Origin: an uncultured cyanobacterium
Lineage (GTDB): Bacteria; Cyanobacteriota; Cyanobacteriia; Thermostichales; Thermostichaceae
Assembly (NCBI GenBank): GCA_937944885.1
Contig: CALFBB010000061.1
Span: 1-34,955 of the forward strand
Length of the DNA: 34,955 nucleotides
Direction of reading: 5' to 3'
Under the pieces are notes generated by a model. The model saw only the letters and a program-made list of their open reading frames with translations. It searched no databases and was not told the origin of the DNA. The translations under genes and the position numbers were made by a program. Below, piece by piece: positions 6,295 through 15,007 of the stretch. Every line of letters begins with the position of its first letter. The first letter of the stretch is position 1.

Positions 6295-8265
6295 CTAAAA
6301 TTGCCCCCGCAGGTTAACTCTCAAGGTTTGCCCAATGCCGGGATAACCGGGAAACACTTCATACTGCTGATCCAGCAGATTCTCTACCCCCACTTCCAGA
6401 GCTAAGCTGTCTGCAATCGGGATCCCTCCTTTCAGGGCCAAGGTGGTGTAGCCGGGGAGAGATTGGCTGTTGCTGTTGTTGGTAAAAAAGGGCCCAATTT
6501 GATGCATCAAGAGGGATCCATACCAGCCCTCAGGATCACGATAGGTCAGCCCCAAGTTGAAGCTATCTGCCCCTACAAAGGCCAGTTCCTTGCCAATTGT
6601 GGCTGAGTCTAAAGCTTCACGAATTCTCGGCTCATTCAAGGTGTAATTGATAAAAGCAGTCCAGTTAGGGCCTAGACGCAGATCCAGGGCAGCTTCCAGA
6701 CCGGTGTACTCCACCAAGCCAATGTTTTCATAGGAGCCGGATCGTTCCCCGGTGCTGACAAACGTAATTCCATCGCGGATGCGATTTTGGGAAAACGTCA
6801 GACGCAACAGTCCACTTTCTCCCAAGGTTTGATCCAGACCAATATCCCAGCTCTCACCCCGTTCTGGACGCAAGTTGGGATTGCCATCCACCTCAAAAAA
6901 ACCCCGCAACCGAAAGAACAACTCTGAAATCAAAGGGGTACGAAAGCTGCTAGCATAATTGGCCCTTAGGATTGTCCCCTCGGCTATGGCCCAACGCAGA
7001 CCCACTGCCGGTGAAGTCGCAGAGCCGTTCACCAAGTTGCTAAAGTCTTGGCGTACCCCTAGGTTGATACCCAACTCCGGATTGGGAGTGTAGTCCAGCC
7101 GGGCAAACAGTGCCCCTTGATTCACTTGGTTGTCGTAATTGACGCAGCTGGATCCCTCGGCAAAAGAGAAGGTGGTGTTGCGCCCGGCAATAGATCGATA
7201 GTCTAGACCGGTTGTTAGACTGAGTTGCTTGCCAATTGGTCGGTCATACTGCAGCTGGGATCCCCAACCGCTTCTCAGAATCACATCACGCGAGCCCTGA
7301 GTTTCAGGGGCGCTAAAGCGATAGTTGAGATCATCCCAAAATAGCCTGGCCCGCAGGGATCCCTCCTCTTGTAGCCAGAGCCAATCCAAATCCAGCAGGA
7401 GATCATTCGTATTTTGAATGGCATCCAGGGAAGGAAAGGTGGTGCTACCCGGCACCTGAAAGGCTTTGGTGAGGTAAAGAGCATTCAAGTTTAAGGTGTG
7501 CTCCTGGCTCAGTTGCCAGGTGAGCTTGGCCTGCAGATTGTTGTACTCCACCCCTGAATTTTCTCGGATCCCGGATTGCTCCAGGCGGGCAATTGCAAAC
7601 GGAAAGTCATTGTTGCTTTCTAGGCGGCGGTAGCTCACCACCCAGCCTAGATCCTGCACTTGCCCCCGCGATTGGATCCCTTGTTCATTCAGCCCATAGC
7701 TGCCTACAGCGGCCTCCAGCAAGGTTTCCGGCTCAGCCGTCGGAGCTACCGTGACAATGTTAATTACCCCACCGATGGCATCAGAACCGTAAAGGGTAGA
7801 TCCTCCCCCTGGCGAGACCTCAATTCGCTCAATTACATCGCTGGTGATTTGGGAGAGATCAAACCCACCAAAAAAGCCCAAATCATTGATCGGGCGGCCA
7901 TCGAGCAACACCAAAACTTGAGCCGTGCGCGCCCCCCGCATGAATTGAGAGCTAAGCGCCCCCAACTGGGTACCGGCGGTGCCATCACTGAGGATCCCTG
8001 GCAGGTAGCGCAGCGCTTCCTGGGCTGTTCTCGCCCCTTGCTCCCGAATCTGCTGACGGGTAATCACATACACAGGACGCGAAGACTCCCGCAACAATCC
8101 CGGACGACGAAAAGGACTGGTTACCGGTTGATTGAGAATCTCAGCGCTAATCCCTGTATCCAAAACCTCCGGGGGCACCGCATCCGCTCCTTGTGTCCAT
8201 CCCTTCATCGGGATGCCAACACACAGCAGCCCCAGCCCCAAGCTGAGGATACAAACTTTATTCAT
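6295..8265 (-). CDS. btuB: TonB-dependent outer-membrane receptor, BtuB-like (cobalamin)
   Basis: A 656-residue outer-membrane receptor that imports a large scarce ligand using TonB energy. It has a signal peptide (about residues 1-25, ending around GWTQG). The plug domain follows at about 60-175, with RPVYVITRQQIREQGARTAQEAL, LPGI, VLVLLDGRPIND, IERIEVSPGGGSTLYGSDAIGGVINIVT. The rest is an alternating beta-barrel ending in a C-terminal Phe (LRVNLRGQF), the usual recognition signal of the outer-membrane assembly machinery. Plug and length match the BtuB/CirA family. Ligand assignment rests on the cobalamin riboswitch about 50 bases upstream, which points to B12 or a related corrinoid. A Shine-Dalgarno (AGGAG) lies about nine bases before the ATG. 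No BtuF, BtuC or BtuD gene is in the window. Confidence 0.92.
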   Translation of the reverse strand: MNKVCILSLGLGLLCVGIPMKGWTQGADAVPPEVLDTGISAEILNQPVTSPFRRPGLLRESSRPVYVITRQQIREQGARTAQEALRYLPGILSDGTAGTQLGALSSQFMRGARTAQVLVLLDGRPINDLGFFGGFDLSQITSDVIERIEVSPGGGSTLYGSDAIGGVINIVTVAPTAEPETLLEAAVGSYGLNEQGIQSRGQVQDLGWVVSYRRLESNNDFPFAIARLEQSGIRENSGVEYNNLQAKLTWQLSQEHTLNLNALYLTKAFQVPGSTTFPSLDAIQNTNDLLLDLDWLWLQEEGSLRARLFWDDLNYRFSAPETQGSRDVILRSGWGSQLQYDRPIGKQLSLTTGLDYRSIAGRNTTFSFAEGSSCVNYDNQVNQGALFARLDYTPNPELGINLGVRQDFSNLVNGSATSPAVGLRWAIAEGTILRANYASSFRTPLISELFFRLRGFFEVDGNPNLRPERGESWDIGLDQTLGESGLLRLTFSQNRIRDGITFVSTGERSGSYENIGLVEYTGLEAALDLRLGPNWTAFINYTLNEPRIREALDSATIGKELAFVGADSFNLGLTYRDPEGWYGSLLMHQIGPFFTNNSNSQSLPGYTTLALKGGIPIADSLALEVGVENLLDQQYEVFPGYPGIGQTLRVNLRGQF

Positions 8266-8318
8266 CTATCCAATCTCCTCTTTCCGTGCAACGCGGAACT
8301 CAAGGATACAAAACCGTA

Positions 8319-8455
8319 GGCGGGCATCCTGACTGAGCGCCAAGCCAAGCTCTAGCGCATCACAGTTGCGGCACAGCGCCGGATTTACACCGGACTTTCC
8401 CCATTACTCCCTGTGGCTGATCCCCAGAGGGGCCTAACGGTAAGACTGCATCATA
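8319..8455 (-). promoter_or_regulatory. Cobalamin (AdoCbl-type) riboswitch
   Basis: Read on the minus strand, the leader of the btuB operon holds the conserved core of a B12 riboswitch. The GGGGAAAGTCCGGTGTAAA region is followed by AAATCCGGCGC (complement of 8376-8386), the B12-box equivalent GCCGCAACTGTGATGC (8357-8372), and the 3' element GTCAGGATGCCCGCC (8319-8333), close to the usual GUCnGGAnACCUGCC. The start codon of btuB follows about 50 bases after the element, which suits control of translation initiation. It should repress the whole btuB-DUF1636-[2Fe-2S]-membrane-protein operon when cobalamin binds. Confidence 0.93.
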
Positions 8456-11083: not shown

Positions 11084-11730
11084 TTTAATTCAGACAACCC
11101 AGCGTCCTTGAGTACAATCTTCTCCTGCGCTGTCTACTATAGCTCACACAAGCCGGTTGCTTGCTTATCAATAAAAGCTCCAAGCTACATCCCTATGAAG
11201 CCAGAAAAGGAAGTAAGGCTCCTCCCTTTTGGTTCGAAGGGATTGGTTCTAAGGTGACGTCTTGCTGCTACTGATGCTATGGGTACGATACGAGACCCAT
11301 AACTCCAATCCCTCTTCAGCCAGCCAGTCACCAGAGCTTGGAACAGGGATCCCTTGGCACTCCAACTGTTTTCCTAGCAGAGGAGGGAGCAATACGCTTT
11401 TCGGCAGTGGTTGTGACGGTTGAGACAGAAGGGCTCTACGTTAGATCTCATGTACATCCAAATCAAGAAGAGCAACTATAATTAAGTTATGATAAGAGGC
11501 TCACGCTTTAGTATCTACTGATCCCTCTGTTGCTACTTCTGCCCCCATTGAATGGGGTGTAAAACGGAAGGCCAGTTGCTGAAGAGGGGAGTGCGACATC
11601 CGCTTGGATGATGATAGCGCGAGGCCACCATCGTTGGGGAACACTAAGCTTAACCCGCTCCGTATTATCGCTATTAGCCTCTCAATCCACTTGCCTACCT
11701 GCCTCTGTTGCTATTTCAGCCACACCTTAC
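11084..11730. other. Divergent intergenic region upstream of the sigma-factor gene
   Basis: About 650 bases lie between the CCB-family gene (minus) and the preferred sigma start. A perfect -10 hexamer TATAAT sits at 11477-11482 on the plus strand, but the best upstream hexamer is poor and off-spaced (TGTACA at 11451-11456), so any promoter may need an activator or be a chance match. The sigma frame is open from 11608, so the last part of this region could be coding if the earlier ATG is used. Confidence 0.4.
11477..11482 (+). promoter_or_regulatory. Candidate -10 element for the sigma-factor gene
   Basis: An exact TATAAT stands about 130 bases before the ATG at 11608. It lacks a well-spaced TTGACA partner. 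AT-rich local context supports it weakly. Confidence 0.3.
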
Positions 11731-12837
11731 ATGTCTACCTACGAACCTGATCTGAACGACGTTTTATCGATGGCCGATGGCCCTGTTGACCTCCTCGAGT
11801 CCTCTGAGGGGATAGAGGTGGACTTAACCGATAGTGACTTTCTAGAAGAGGAGCCGGCCCGCCGCTCGACCGATCTTGTCCGTCTCTATTTGCAGGAGAT
11901 TGGTCGAGTTCCTTTGCTAGGACGAGATGAAGAGGTGTCCTTAGCTCAAAAGGTCCAGGACTACATGAAGCTTCTGGATCTGCGGTTTCGCCTGCAGAAG
12001 GAACTCGGACGGGAGCCCACCTATGCCGAGTGGGCTGCCAAGGCTAATCAATATCCGGAGTGGCAACACCTCACCCCTGAGAAGCTGCAGCAGATCCAGC
12101 GAATTGGCAACCGAGCCAAAGATCACATGATTAAGGCCAACCTGCGCTTGGTGGTGTCGGTAGCCAAGAAGTATCAAAACCGCGGTTTAGAGCTGCTGGA
12201 CTTAATTCAGGAGGGTACCCTTGGCCTGGAGCGGGCGGTGGAAAAGTTTGATCCCAAGAAGGGCTACCGCTTCAGTACCTATGCCTACTGGTGGATCCGG
12301 CAGGGGATTACCCGGGCCATTGCTACCCAGAGCCGCACCATTCGCTTGCCGGTTCATATCACGGAGAAGCTGAATAAAATCAAAAAAGCACAGCGCAAAA
12401 TCTCCCAAGAGAAGGGGCGCACCCCCACGATTGAAGACATTGCCTCTGAGTTGGAGATGACCCCACCGCAGGTACGGGAGCTGTTGGTGCGGGTGCCTCG
12501 CTCTGTTTCTCTGGAAACCAAAGTAGGTAAGGACAAAGACACCGAGCTAGGGGATCTGCTGGAGACTGATGATATTTCTCCAGAAGAGACGATGATGCGG
12601 GAAGCTCTGCATCGGGATCTGCAACATCTGCTCTCGGATTTGACCAGCCGCGAGCGAGATGTTATCCGTATGCGCTTTGGTTTGGGAGATGGGCGCACTT
12701 ACTCCCTAGCGGAGATTGGTCGAGCTTTGGATCTGTCGCGGGAACGGGTACGACAAATTGAAGCCAAAGCGCTGCAGAAGCTGCGGCAACCGAAGCGGCG
12801 CAACCGTGTGCGGGATTACTTGGAGGCGATGAGCTAG
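11731..12837 (+). CDS. RNA polymerase sigma-70 factor, cyanobacterial group 2
   Basis: A 368-residue sigma factor that directs RNA polymerase to promoters. Region 1.2 is STDLVRLYLQEIGRVPLLGRDEEV. Region 2 includes RAKDHMIKANLRLVVSVAKKYQNRG, the polymerase-binding LLDLIQEGTLGLERAVEKFDP, and the -10-reading YRFSTYAYWWIRQGITRAI near residue 180. Region 3 follows, and region 4 ends with the helix-turn-helix YSLAEIGRALDLSRERVRQIEAK near residue 325. The short N-terminus and the ERAVEKFDPKKGYRFSTYAYWWIRQGI pattern distinguish it from the primary factor SigA and place it with SigB/SigD/SigE-type group 2 factors. I cannot choose among those symbols. I chose the ATG at 11731 because region 1.2 begins shortly after; an ATG at 11608 would add 41 unlikely residues. 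Neither has a good Shine-Dalgarno site. Confidence 0.93.
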   Translation: MSTYEPDLNDVLSMADGPVDLLESSEGIEVDLTDSDFLEEEPARRSTDLVRLYLQEIGRVPLLGRDEEVSLAQKVQDYMKLLDLRFRLQKELGREPTYAEWAAKANQYPEWQHLTPEKLQQIQRIGNRAKDHMIKANLRLVVSVAKKYQNRGLELLDLIQEGTLGLERAVEKFDPKKGYRFSTYAYWWIRQGITRAIATQSRTIRLPVHITEKLNKIKKAQRKISQEKGRTPTIEDIASELEMTPPQVRELLVRVPRSVSLETKVGKDKDTELGDLLETDDISPEETMMREALHRDLQHLLSDLTSRERDVIRMRFGLGDGRTYSLAEIGRALDLSRERVRQIEAKALQKLRQPKRRNRVRDYLEAMS

Positions 12838-12854
12838 TTCTGGTACAGTTACCC

Positions 12855-13140
12855 AAATCCGTTGCCGTGCTCCGCCTGTCGCGACAGTGGTGCGTAGCAC
12901 CCTACCCTAGGGGGGTTAGGGGGTGGTGGAGACCTAGGTCGTGGGAACCGGCGGCGGGCGACCCTTGGTGCAGCCCAGAGGGGGCAGTCTGCTGAGAGGG
13001 TCCCAACGTGCGGTGGGGCGCAGCGTGGAGGTTCAATCAAAATGCCTGCGGAGACGGTCTGACGGAGGTTGGGGCAATCCAACCCAGTTCAGGGTTTGTG
13101 AAAAGGAATCTCCGATCCTACCCGTTAGGGTTGGGGGGAG
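12855..13140. ncRNA. GC-rich, densely structured non-coding block; candidate structured RNA
   Basis: Between the convergent sigma and murJ genes lies about 285 bases packed with inverted repeats: CTGTCGCGACAG (12876-12887), GGTGC-GTA-GCACC (12889-12901), CCCTACCC facing GGGTTAGGG (12900-12921), palindrome GACCTAGGTC (12931-12940), GACCCTT facing GAGGGTC (about 12960-13001), and CCAACCC facing GGGTTGG (about 13079-13134). The block is far richer in G than the neighbouring genes and contains no GGATCC. I did not find tmRNA, RNase P or SRP core motifs. 6S RNA is a possibility by size and by the CAGGGTTTGTG...GGAATCTCCG segment, but I cannot confirm it. Strand and ends are unknown. Confidence 0.45.
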
Positions 13141-13144
13141 AAGG

Positions 13145-14788
13145 TCAATGGTTCGGCTGACCAGCTAACCGACGAAGTACGCGACCAGCGCAGTTTCGGA
13201 TCTGAGCTGCTACCCAGTTCATTTCCGGGATCCGCAAGGCCAGGGCCCCTAAGAGGAACAGAGCCAGGCCTAGGCCTGCGGCCAATCCAGACCAGACAAG
13301 GGTGGTGAGCAGCGGAGATCCAAGCAATTCCAGTGACCGCAGTTGCATCCACAACCCGTGGCTTAGTCCGCCTGCCAAGGCAGTAATCCCCAGCAGAGGA
13401 ATGAGGTTGCGGCCCATGTCAAGCCAGGGGATCCCTTGTAAATGCTGCTGTAGGCGGATCCCTAGCCCAATCAGCGCCACCAAGTTTACCCCTGCTGTAG
13501 CCAAGGCGATCCCGGGTGCTCCGAAAGCCCGTAAAAGCAGAAAGTCTAGGAGGGCATTTAGGCCGATGGCTATACCGCTGATGCGCAAAGGGGTGATCCC
13601 ATCTTCTAGGGCGTAGAAGATCCGCACCAAGACATCCCGCAGCAGGTAGCAGCTCATCCCTAAGCCATAGGCCATCAGCAGGGCTGCTACCTCCTGCGCC
13701 ACTTCCGCCGTAAAGCGCCCGCGCTGATAAGCCACTTGTACAATCGGTTCTGCTAGCGCCACCAACAGCATCGACAGCGGTAGGGTGAGGATGGCAGTAA
13801 TCATCAAGCTTTGACGAATCCGTTGGCGCAACTCTGGCCAGCGGGCTCTATCTCCTGCCAACTGAGCGTAGAGGGGCATCAAGGGCACCAACACCATGTT
13901 GGAGAGAATCCCCAGTGGAGTTTGCACCAAAAGTTGGGCATATCCGAGATTGCCGATGGTGCGATCCCCGGGCACGAAGGAGGCAAAAAACATATCCACA
14001 TAAACATTGATGTGGATCATCCCGGAAGAAATCACTGCCGGCAACATCAACAATCCCACCGCCCGTACCTGGGGTGATCCCCACTCAAAGCGGAGACGAG
14101 GTTTTCCCAACCCCAACCGCATTTGCAAAGGCACTTGGGCCAACCACTGAGCCACTGCCCCCGCCAAGACCCCCCAGGCAATCAGAGAAGGGAGCCTGGT
14201 CCAGCCAAAGGCCAACAGCACGGTAATCACCGCCAGGCTGGAGATGAGTGGACTGAGGGCAGGTAAGGCGTAGTGCCCAGCAGCATTGAGGGTTCCAAAG
14301 CCAATACCAATCAACCCCGAGAGCAAAGCCAAAGGGGCCATGATCCGCAACTGGGTGGCGGCCAGGGCATGAACTTCTGGGCTAGCACCCGGCGCATTCA
14401 GGCGTACCACCCATTCTGCGCCCCACCACAAGCCAAAGGTAACCAGCAAGAGCAGGCAACCCACCAAGGTGGAGATTGACTCTAACCAGCGGGCTGGGTC
14501 ATCTGTGGCGGGATCCTGCTGTTTTTTAAGGATGCTAACAATGGCGCTGTGGAAAGGGCCGTTAATTCCCCCCAACAGGATCAACAAAAAACCCGGCAGA
14601 ATGTAGGCTACTCCAAAGGCACTGTACTCTGGCCCTGAGCCGTACACCGCCGCGATCAGGGCCTGCCGAATAAACCCCATACCTTTACTGAGCAAGGTAG
14701 CCCCAGCTACCAAGCCCGCCACTGAAAGCAAAGAACGGGATGCTCTGGGCAAGGAGGTTTCTTCACCGGTTGCACCCTCCTCGCTCAT
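13145..14788 (-). CDS. murJ: Lipid II flippase MurJ (MviN family)
   Basis: MurJ moves the peptidoglycan precursor lipid II across the inner membrane. The 547-residue protein has about 14 hydrophobic segments in the family arrangement. The N-terminus LVAGATLLSKGMGFIRQALIAAVYG is the typical MurJ opening. Later landmarks are GGINGPFHSAIVSIL, RIMAPLALLSGLIGIGFGTLNA, the NVYVDMFFASFVPGDRTIGNL loop region, LGYAQLLVQTPLGILSNMVLVPLMP and YALEDGITPLRISGIAIGLNALLD. The ATG at 14788 begins a polar N-terminus that fits the family. The open frame reaches 14929, but the extra 47 residues span tandem-repeat DNA (14831-14862) and are unlikely to be translated. The gene converges on the sigma gene across the structured block, and no partner gene is in the same transcription unit. 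Confidence 0.93.
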   Translation of the reverse strand: MSEEGATGEETSLPRASRSLLSVAGLVAGATLLSKGMGFIRQALIAAVYGSGPEYSAFGVAYILPGFLLILLGGINGPFHSAIVSILKKQQDPATDDPARWLESISTLVGCLLLLVTFGLWWGAEWVVRLNAPGASPEVHALAATQLRIMAPLALLSGLIGIGFGTLNAAGHYALPALSPLISSLAVITVLLAFGWTRLPSLIAWGVLAGAVAQWLAQVPLQMRLGLGKPRLRFEWGSPQVRAVGLLMLPAVISSGMIHINVYVDMFFASFVPGDRTIGNLGYAQLLVQTPLGILSNMVLVPLMPLYAQLAGDRARWPELRQRIRQSLMITAILTLPLSMLLVALAEPIVQVAYQRGRFTAEVAQEVAALLMAYGLGMSCYLLRDVLVRIFYALEDGITPLRISGIAIGLNALLDFLLLRAFGAPGIALATAGVNLVALIGLGIRLQQHLQGIPWLDMGRNLIPLLGITALAGGLSHGLWMQLRSLELLGSPLLTTLVWSGLAAGLGLALFLLGALALRIPEMNWVAAQIRNCAGRVLRRLAGQPNH

Positions 14789-14830
14789 CGATTTCCCCGC
14801 AACATCATGCACTCTCCCAAGACCAACCTC

Positions 14831-14862
14831 TCGATATTGGCTAACATCGATATTGGCTAACA
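14831..14862. repeat. 16-base perfect tandem duplication upstream of murJ
   Basis: TCGATATTGGCTAACA is present twice head to tail without mismatch, 40-70 bases before the murJ start. A second duplication (GGAGTACCTTAA, 14884-14895 and 14902-14913, period 18) follows closely. Confidence 0.93.
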
Positions 14863-14883
14863 AAGGCAACCGAGCAGCTTGAA

Positions 14884-14913
14884 GGAGTACCTTAAAGAAA
14901 GGGAGTACCTTAA
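14884..14913. repeat. 12-base direct repeat, period 18
   Basis: GGAGTACCTTAA recurs at 14884 and 14902, separated by six A/G-rich bases. Read on the minus strand it gives TTAAGGTACTCC twice, in the likely promoter region of murJ. Confidence 0.85.
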
Positions 14914-15007
14914 GCAGCCAAAACCTCATTATCCAGGATCTCTGGGATCCCGAACCGCTTGAGTGGAGATTGCCCAGTCAGGAGGGCTGATGGGGGAGTG
15001 GCTCCGC

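Follow-up and report, generated by a model that had tools for sequence, protein, structure and literature searches.

A GC-rich block lies between a sigma-70-family factor gene and murJ in the 34,955-nucleotide stretch of DNA analysed here (the window, positions 1-34955), raising the question of whether it encodes a structured RNA or has some other origin. A preliminary description of the block, which was delimited at 12855-13140, had reported a G-rich spacer between two convergent genes that do not need it, with no plausible open reading frame (ORF) and no GGATCC sites, and had suggested that it may be an independent RNA, possibly 6S RNA or a novel class. The setting was described accurately. 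The two genes are convergent, the GC content is 63.3% in the block and 53.6% in the window, 112 of the 286 bases are G, and no credible ORF and no GGATCC site are present in the block. In the window as a whole GGATCC is a highly iterated palindrome spread over its length (100 sites, 12.3 expected, sd 3.3), and GGGATCC occurs 124 times (6.9 expected).

The block had also been called strongly folding, with six or more inverted repeats regarded as unusual. When it was compared with shuffled sequence of the same composition, as the preliminary description had itself proposed, its fold was no more stable than that of the shuffles (z -1.22 on the forward strand and -1.23 on the reverse strand, with 19/200 and 18/200 shuffles equally stable). 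Perfect hairpin stems were likewise at the level of shuffled sequence, with two stems of at least 6 bp (1.47 ± 1.05 in shuffles) and four of at least 5 bp (3.8 ± 1.2 in shuffles), and an independent stable RNA was rejected on these grounds. Searches with Rfam identified no family at its gathering score over the block, and at E≤10 across 12800-13200 two weak, irrelevant matches alone were returned. The 6S models had no match at either threshold, and 6S RNA was rejected together with other known RNAs. No tRNA or tmRNA was found in the block, and a HEARO/IscB-type RNA was considered and discarded due to the lack of an Rfam match and because the homologous genes encode TnpB. Elsewhere in the window, the Rfam search located a cobalamin riboswitch (52.1 bits) at 8302-8452 on the reverse strand, a short distance 5' of a long ORF (6295-8265, reverse strand) whose product, named by eye, appears to resemble a TonB-dependent receptor.

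A search of the host's own genome using window positions 12830-13160 as the query returned 31 matches at E≤1 and 19 (window included) at E<1e-5, located on many contigs, and the ten best matches beyond the window all had E<1e-20. At least ten other strong copies, partial or full, are dispersed in the host genome: near-complete copies on contigs C7 (76% identity) and C47 (68%), left-half copies on C55 and C7 (86%), and right-half copies on C17, C25, C50 and C8 (84-89%). The 11 best matches, the window itself aside, are 68-89% identical and many of them are partial, indicating a heterogeneous family in which left-half and right-half copies show no clear difference in BLAST identity. Similar right halves were also found in other cyanobacteria.

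Multiple dispersed copies that share their ends within one genome are typical of a non-autonomous IS200/IS605 element, and alignment of the copies allowed both ends to be placed (Table 1). In 9 of 11 left-end rows the alignment begins immediately after YTAC, which is displaced outwards by some bases in L028 and L030, and TCAA is found at the end of all but one (L037) of 22 right-end rows, giving the combination of a left target tetranucleotide (YTAC) and a conserved right cleavage site (TCAA) that marks IS200/IS605 elements. The feature first delimited is real, but its extent is slightly larger than had been described.

Table 1 Features of the sigma-factor/murJ junction in the window
Feature	Position	Strand	Basis or remark
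Sigma-70-family factor gene	11608-12837	+	Convergent with murJ
TTAC, putative target and left cleavage site (would double as TnpB TAM)	12849..12852	+	YTAC at left ends; IS608 CL
Complete miniature element, 296 bp, without tnpA or tnpB	12853..13148	+	Dispersed own-genome copies; ends from alignments; element-free sites in 5 congeners
Left end	12853..12965	+	Alignments
Subterminal imperfect hairpin, predicted	12870-12931	+	Within left end; DNA fold z 0.26, not above shuffles
Right end and residue of tnpB 3' end (codons NACGDGLT; IS605 OrfB C-terminus)	13009..13148	+	Matches in other genomes
omegaRNA/reRNA-like core, nested stems P1-P4 and right-end hairpin	13041..13148	+	Model R1, 103.9 bits (training-set member)
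GAAT, like IS608 right guide sequence GR	13106..13109	+	Just before right-end hairpin
Right-end hairpin (IPR-like)	13109..13141	+	DNA fold z -1.80, 11/200 shuffles as good; helix 4 of consensus
TCAA, right end and right cleavage site	13145..13148	+	Right-end alignment; IS608 CR
murJ	13145-14929	-	Convergent with sigma-70-family factor gene
Host sequence, would-be 16-nt guide if the right end is transcribed	13149..13164	+	Guide position by analogy with ISDra2 TnpB (extracts of PMC8612924)

The sigma-factor gene and murJ are adjacent, convergent and element-free in five of five congeneric genomes, in agreement with the view that neither gene needs the block, and model R1 (see below) had no match at this locus in any of the five. 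The junction in these congeners ranges from a few to some tens of bases. TTAC is present at the corresponding empty site in two of the five (GTTTACGG in L101 and CTTACCC in L102), although divergence of the spacer leaves the exact position of the junction approximate. The complement of 13145-13147, the last bases of the element, is the TGA stop codon of murJ, and an element-free allele would end murJ with a TAA supplied by TTAC, so that the insertion would hardly have altered the protein. Two further copies were considered for empty sites. The flanks of the 109-bp copy on C25 are closer together in G005 and G002 and too diverged for a precise junction to be read, and the copy on C8 was uninformative, as its two flanks are either widely separated or on separate contigs in the five congeners.

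These comparisons bear on two other explanations for the block. An independent structured RNA gene fixed at the sigma-factor/murJ locus, either 6S RNA or a new class, would fit a GC-rich spacer without a credible ORF, but is highly improbable given the lack of any Rfam match, the fold z of -1.2 on both strands, its absence from this position in all five congeners and its multiple copies in the genome; as a locus-specific conserved gene it is refuted, and the RNA tentatively suggested in the preliminary description proved to be a dispersed mobile element. A transcription terminator or barrier between the convergent genes, whether native or co-opted from the element, would suit the position of the block between two convergent stop codons, one of which is formed by the last bases of the element. 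However, no terminator-like hairpin with a T-run was found on either strand and the congeners lack the block, having only their short junctions, making this role quite unlikely.

The source of the element was indicated by matches in other genomes. Positions 13041-13148 match the tnpB 3' end and transposon right end in other cyanobacteria. The proteins encoded at three of these loci (L055, L056 and L058) are TnpB (OrfB_IS605, Cas12f1-like_TNB, HTH_OrfB_IS605), the 3' ends of their genes overlap the right-part match, and remnant codons for the TnpB C-terminus persist in the window. Within the left end, approximately 12914-12963 matches DNA located just upstream of tnpB in a sister genus (L055/L060). 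Family queries also matched both ends of a complete element containing tnpA and tnpB (L063, genome G008), as expected of an autonomous relative, in which the left end is followed in order by a Y1 tnpA facing the opposite way, tnpB and the right end. Separately, contig C31 of the host's own genome has a degenerate tnpB 3' end with a right end behind it (L082, ~1534-1740), left over from another, related IS605 lineage.

In order to define the structure of the right end, a covariation alignment was assembled from 16 of the 22 aligned right ends, drawn from MITE-like copies and tnpB-linked loci; the remaining six (L037, L038, L052, L054, L059 and L060) were excluded because they were degraded, truncated, near-duplicate or interrupted by long inserts. 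The consensus consists of nested stems P1-P4 and the right-end hairpin. Across the 16 sequences, 94.1% of cells were paired compared with 83.7% in shuffles, there were 43 double-changed cells compared with 11.6, and the covariation score was 0.392 compared with 0.198, with 0/500 shuffles as high. For 27 matches outside the model set, aligned by fitting to the model structure, there were 134 double-changed cells compared with 46.0. A conserved, covarying fold of this kind is expected of an omegaRNA/reRNA. At E≤0.01 the covariance model (R1) gave 22 matches in the own genome; the eight scoring above 100 bits are all model members. Across the class, 36 of 145 genomes had matches at E≤0.001. A tnpB 3' end overlaps or abuts the R1 match in 15 of 23 added loci (L138-L160); as L141 repeats a model sequence, the count of tnpB-linked loci independent of the model is 14 of 22.

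As the fold covaries and R1 recovers tnpB 3' ends, the right third of the block can be assigned as a TnpB omegaRNA/reRNA scaffold. Overlap with the tnpB 3' end and extension to the transposon right end, as in known omegaRNAs, apply to the window by homology, the tnpB gene being gone there. The expectation of structured RNA within the block was thus correct for the covarying fold of the right third and incorrect for a single conserved RNA gene. The comparison with relatives that had been recommended yielded covariation in the right-end family and no element at the locus in the congeners, and it is only by such comparison that structure in the block is visible, since its own fold is no better than that of shuffled sequence.

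The copies are dispersed and have defined ends, the congeners have empty sites, both ends are homologous to those of a tnpA+tnpB element, and the covarying fold is common to tnpB-linked loci. The block is best explained, with a probability of about 94%, as a non-autonomous, internally deleted IS200/IS605-family element (MITE/PATE-like, with IS608-type ends) located 3' of TTAC and containing a tnpB-derived omegaRNA scaffold. It is an ordinary, well-supported transposable element, an already-known kind of genomic parasite, and most likely a decaying one. It carries a relic or orphan omegaRNA scaffold and is neither 6S RNA nor a new RNA class. The element would have inserted 3' of TTAC, into the very short gap that separates the sigma-factor gene from murJ, once this lineage had diverged from its congeners. 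Its movement, present or past, would occur as single-stranded DNA, with mobilisation by a Y1 transposase (TnpA) acting in trans and cutting at TTAC and TCAA. The right third is the old tnpB 3' end with its omegaRNA/reRNA scaffold, which explains the conserved, G-rich, foldable sequence. There are four Y1 matches in the host, three of them over the cut-off. A BLAST comparison of five element queries with 12 tnpA loci gave matches only in L092 and L100, and not in the host's own L089, identifying no host TnpA with matching ends. This counts against the explanation, as do the heterogeneity of the family, the ordinary stability of the left-end hairpin, the lack of TCAA in L037 and the approximate reading of the empty-site junction. 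The RNA function has probably been lost, since the host assembly yielded no cognate full-length tnpB: matches at E≤1e-20 were limited to proteins of 34% and 35% identity and a 78-residue fragment of 65% identity.

The element resembles several known systems. In IS608, the left cleavage site (CL) is TTAC, the right cleavage site (CR) is TCAA and the right guide sequence (GR) is GAAT (extracts of PMC5934647); the TTAC on the left, TCAA on the right, GAAT guide and right-end hairpin are common to the block and this IS200/IS605 element. In contrast to IS608, the block lacks tnpA and tnpB, its predicted left-end hairpin is longer and interrupted, and its other copies use CTAC in addition to TTAC. 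PATEs of Haloquadratum walsbyi are transposase-free IS605 derivatives that retain only the termini, some having arisen by core deletion, and they share with the block the absence of a transposase and of terminal inverted repeats and the IS605-type target oligonucleotide, while their IS605-type subterminal palindromes may have counterparts in the predicted end hairpins of the block (extracts of PMC3119063). Unlike these archaeal elements, the block has kept a right end that includes a covarying omegaRNA scaffold, a feature not discussed for PATEs in the accessible part of that paper. The omegaRNA/reRNA of ISDra2 is formed from the tnpB 3' end and the right end, with ~16 nt of adjacent DNA serving as guide (extracts of PMC8612924), and the block has the same origin, a similar length of ~140 nt and flanking sequence in the guide position, whereas it has no attached tnpB, differs in sequence and is a predicted RNA. 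MITEs derived from ISSoc2 have been reported in thermophilic Synechococcus (Nelson 2012, as summarised in part of the review PMC10969869) and are set beside the block by description rather than by sequence. Among the papers returned by literature searches, no title or abstract opening mentioned omegaRNA MITEs lacking tnpB in cyanobacteria.

An alternative to decay is that the scaffold still acts in trans: the right end would be transcribed with ~16 bases of murJ flank as guide, loaded into a TnpB encoded elsewhere, and used to cut the element-free allele, which would preserve the element or copy it back in. The scaffold fold is retained (R1 score in Table 1), TTAC and the right flank reproduce the TAM and target layout of ISDra2 (extracts of PMC8612924), comparison of the window with L028 shows slightly higher conservation in the core (97/116 aligned columns) than in the left part (115/162), and the host encodes other TnpB genes (13 PF07282 matches, 12 over the cut-off). 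However, the assembly contains no cognate full-length TnpB, the window copy has lost one base in stem P1, its own minimum-energy fold is not above shuffles (z 0.14), no promoter-like site was found at the block and the copies have diverged, so activity in trans is unlikely. It is equally doubtful that the miniature transposons, some as short as 109 bp, of Synechococcus-like cyanobacteria from hot springs form a family of guide-RNA-only selfish elements, having a complete scaffold without tnpB and persisting through borrowed TnpB that cuts element-free alleles in trans.

With the block read as a decaying MITE/PATE-like element, an apparent new RNA becomes an explained mobile element, and IS605-derived MITEs may account for GC-rich "structured" spacers elsewhere in these genomes. 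Together with the copies that lack tnpB, the covariance model supplies a defined collection of orphan omegaRNA scaffolds open to testing, relevant to the question of whether a guide RNA can survive the loss of its nuclease gene and act in trans. Among R1 matches in other cyanobacteria, eight (L138, L139, L143, L153, L156, L157, L158 and L160) were those for which no tnpB was found on the 5' side, and they may, on the basis of the model, be orphan omegaRNA scaffolds elsewhere. In the dispersed family, 109-bp versions (L032 3001-3109, L034 2994-3102 and L035 3001-3109) comprise the omegaRNA core and still have a YTAC border. These three of the four short copies (~109 bp; L036 is the exception) start directly at CTAC followed by AATGCC, and all three end in TCAA; they look like a minimal mobile form that dispenses with the usual left end.
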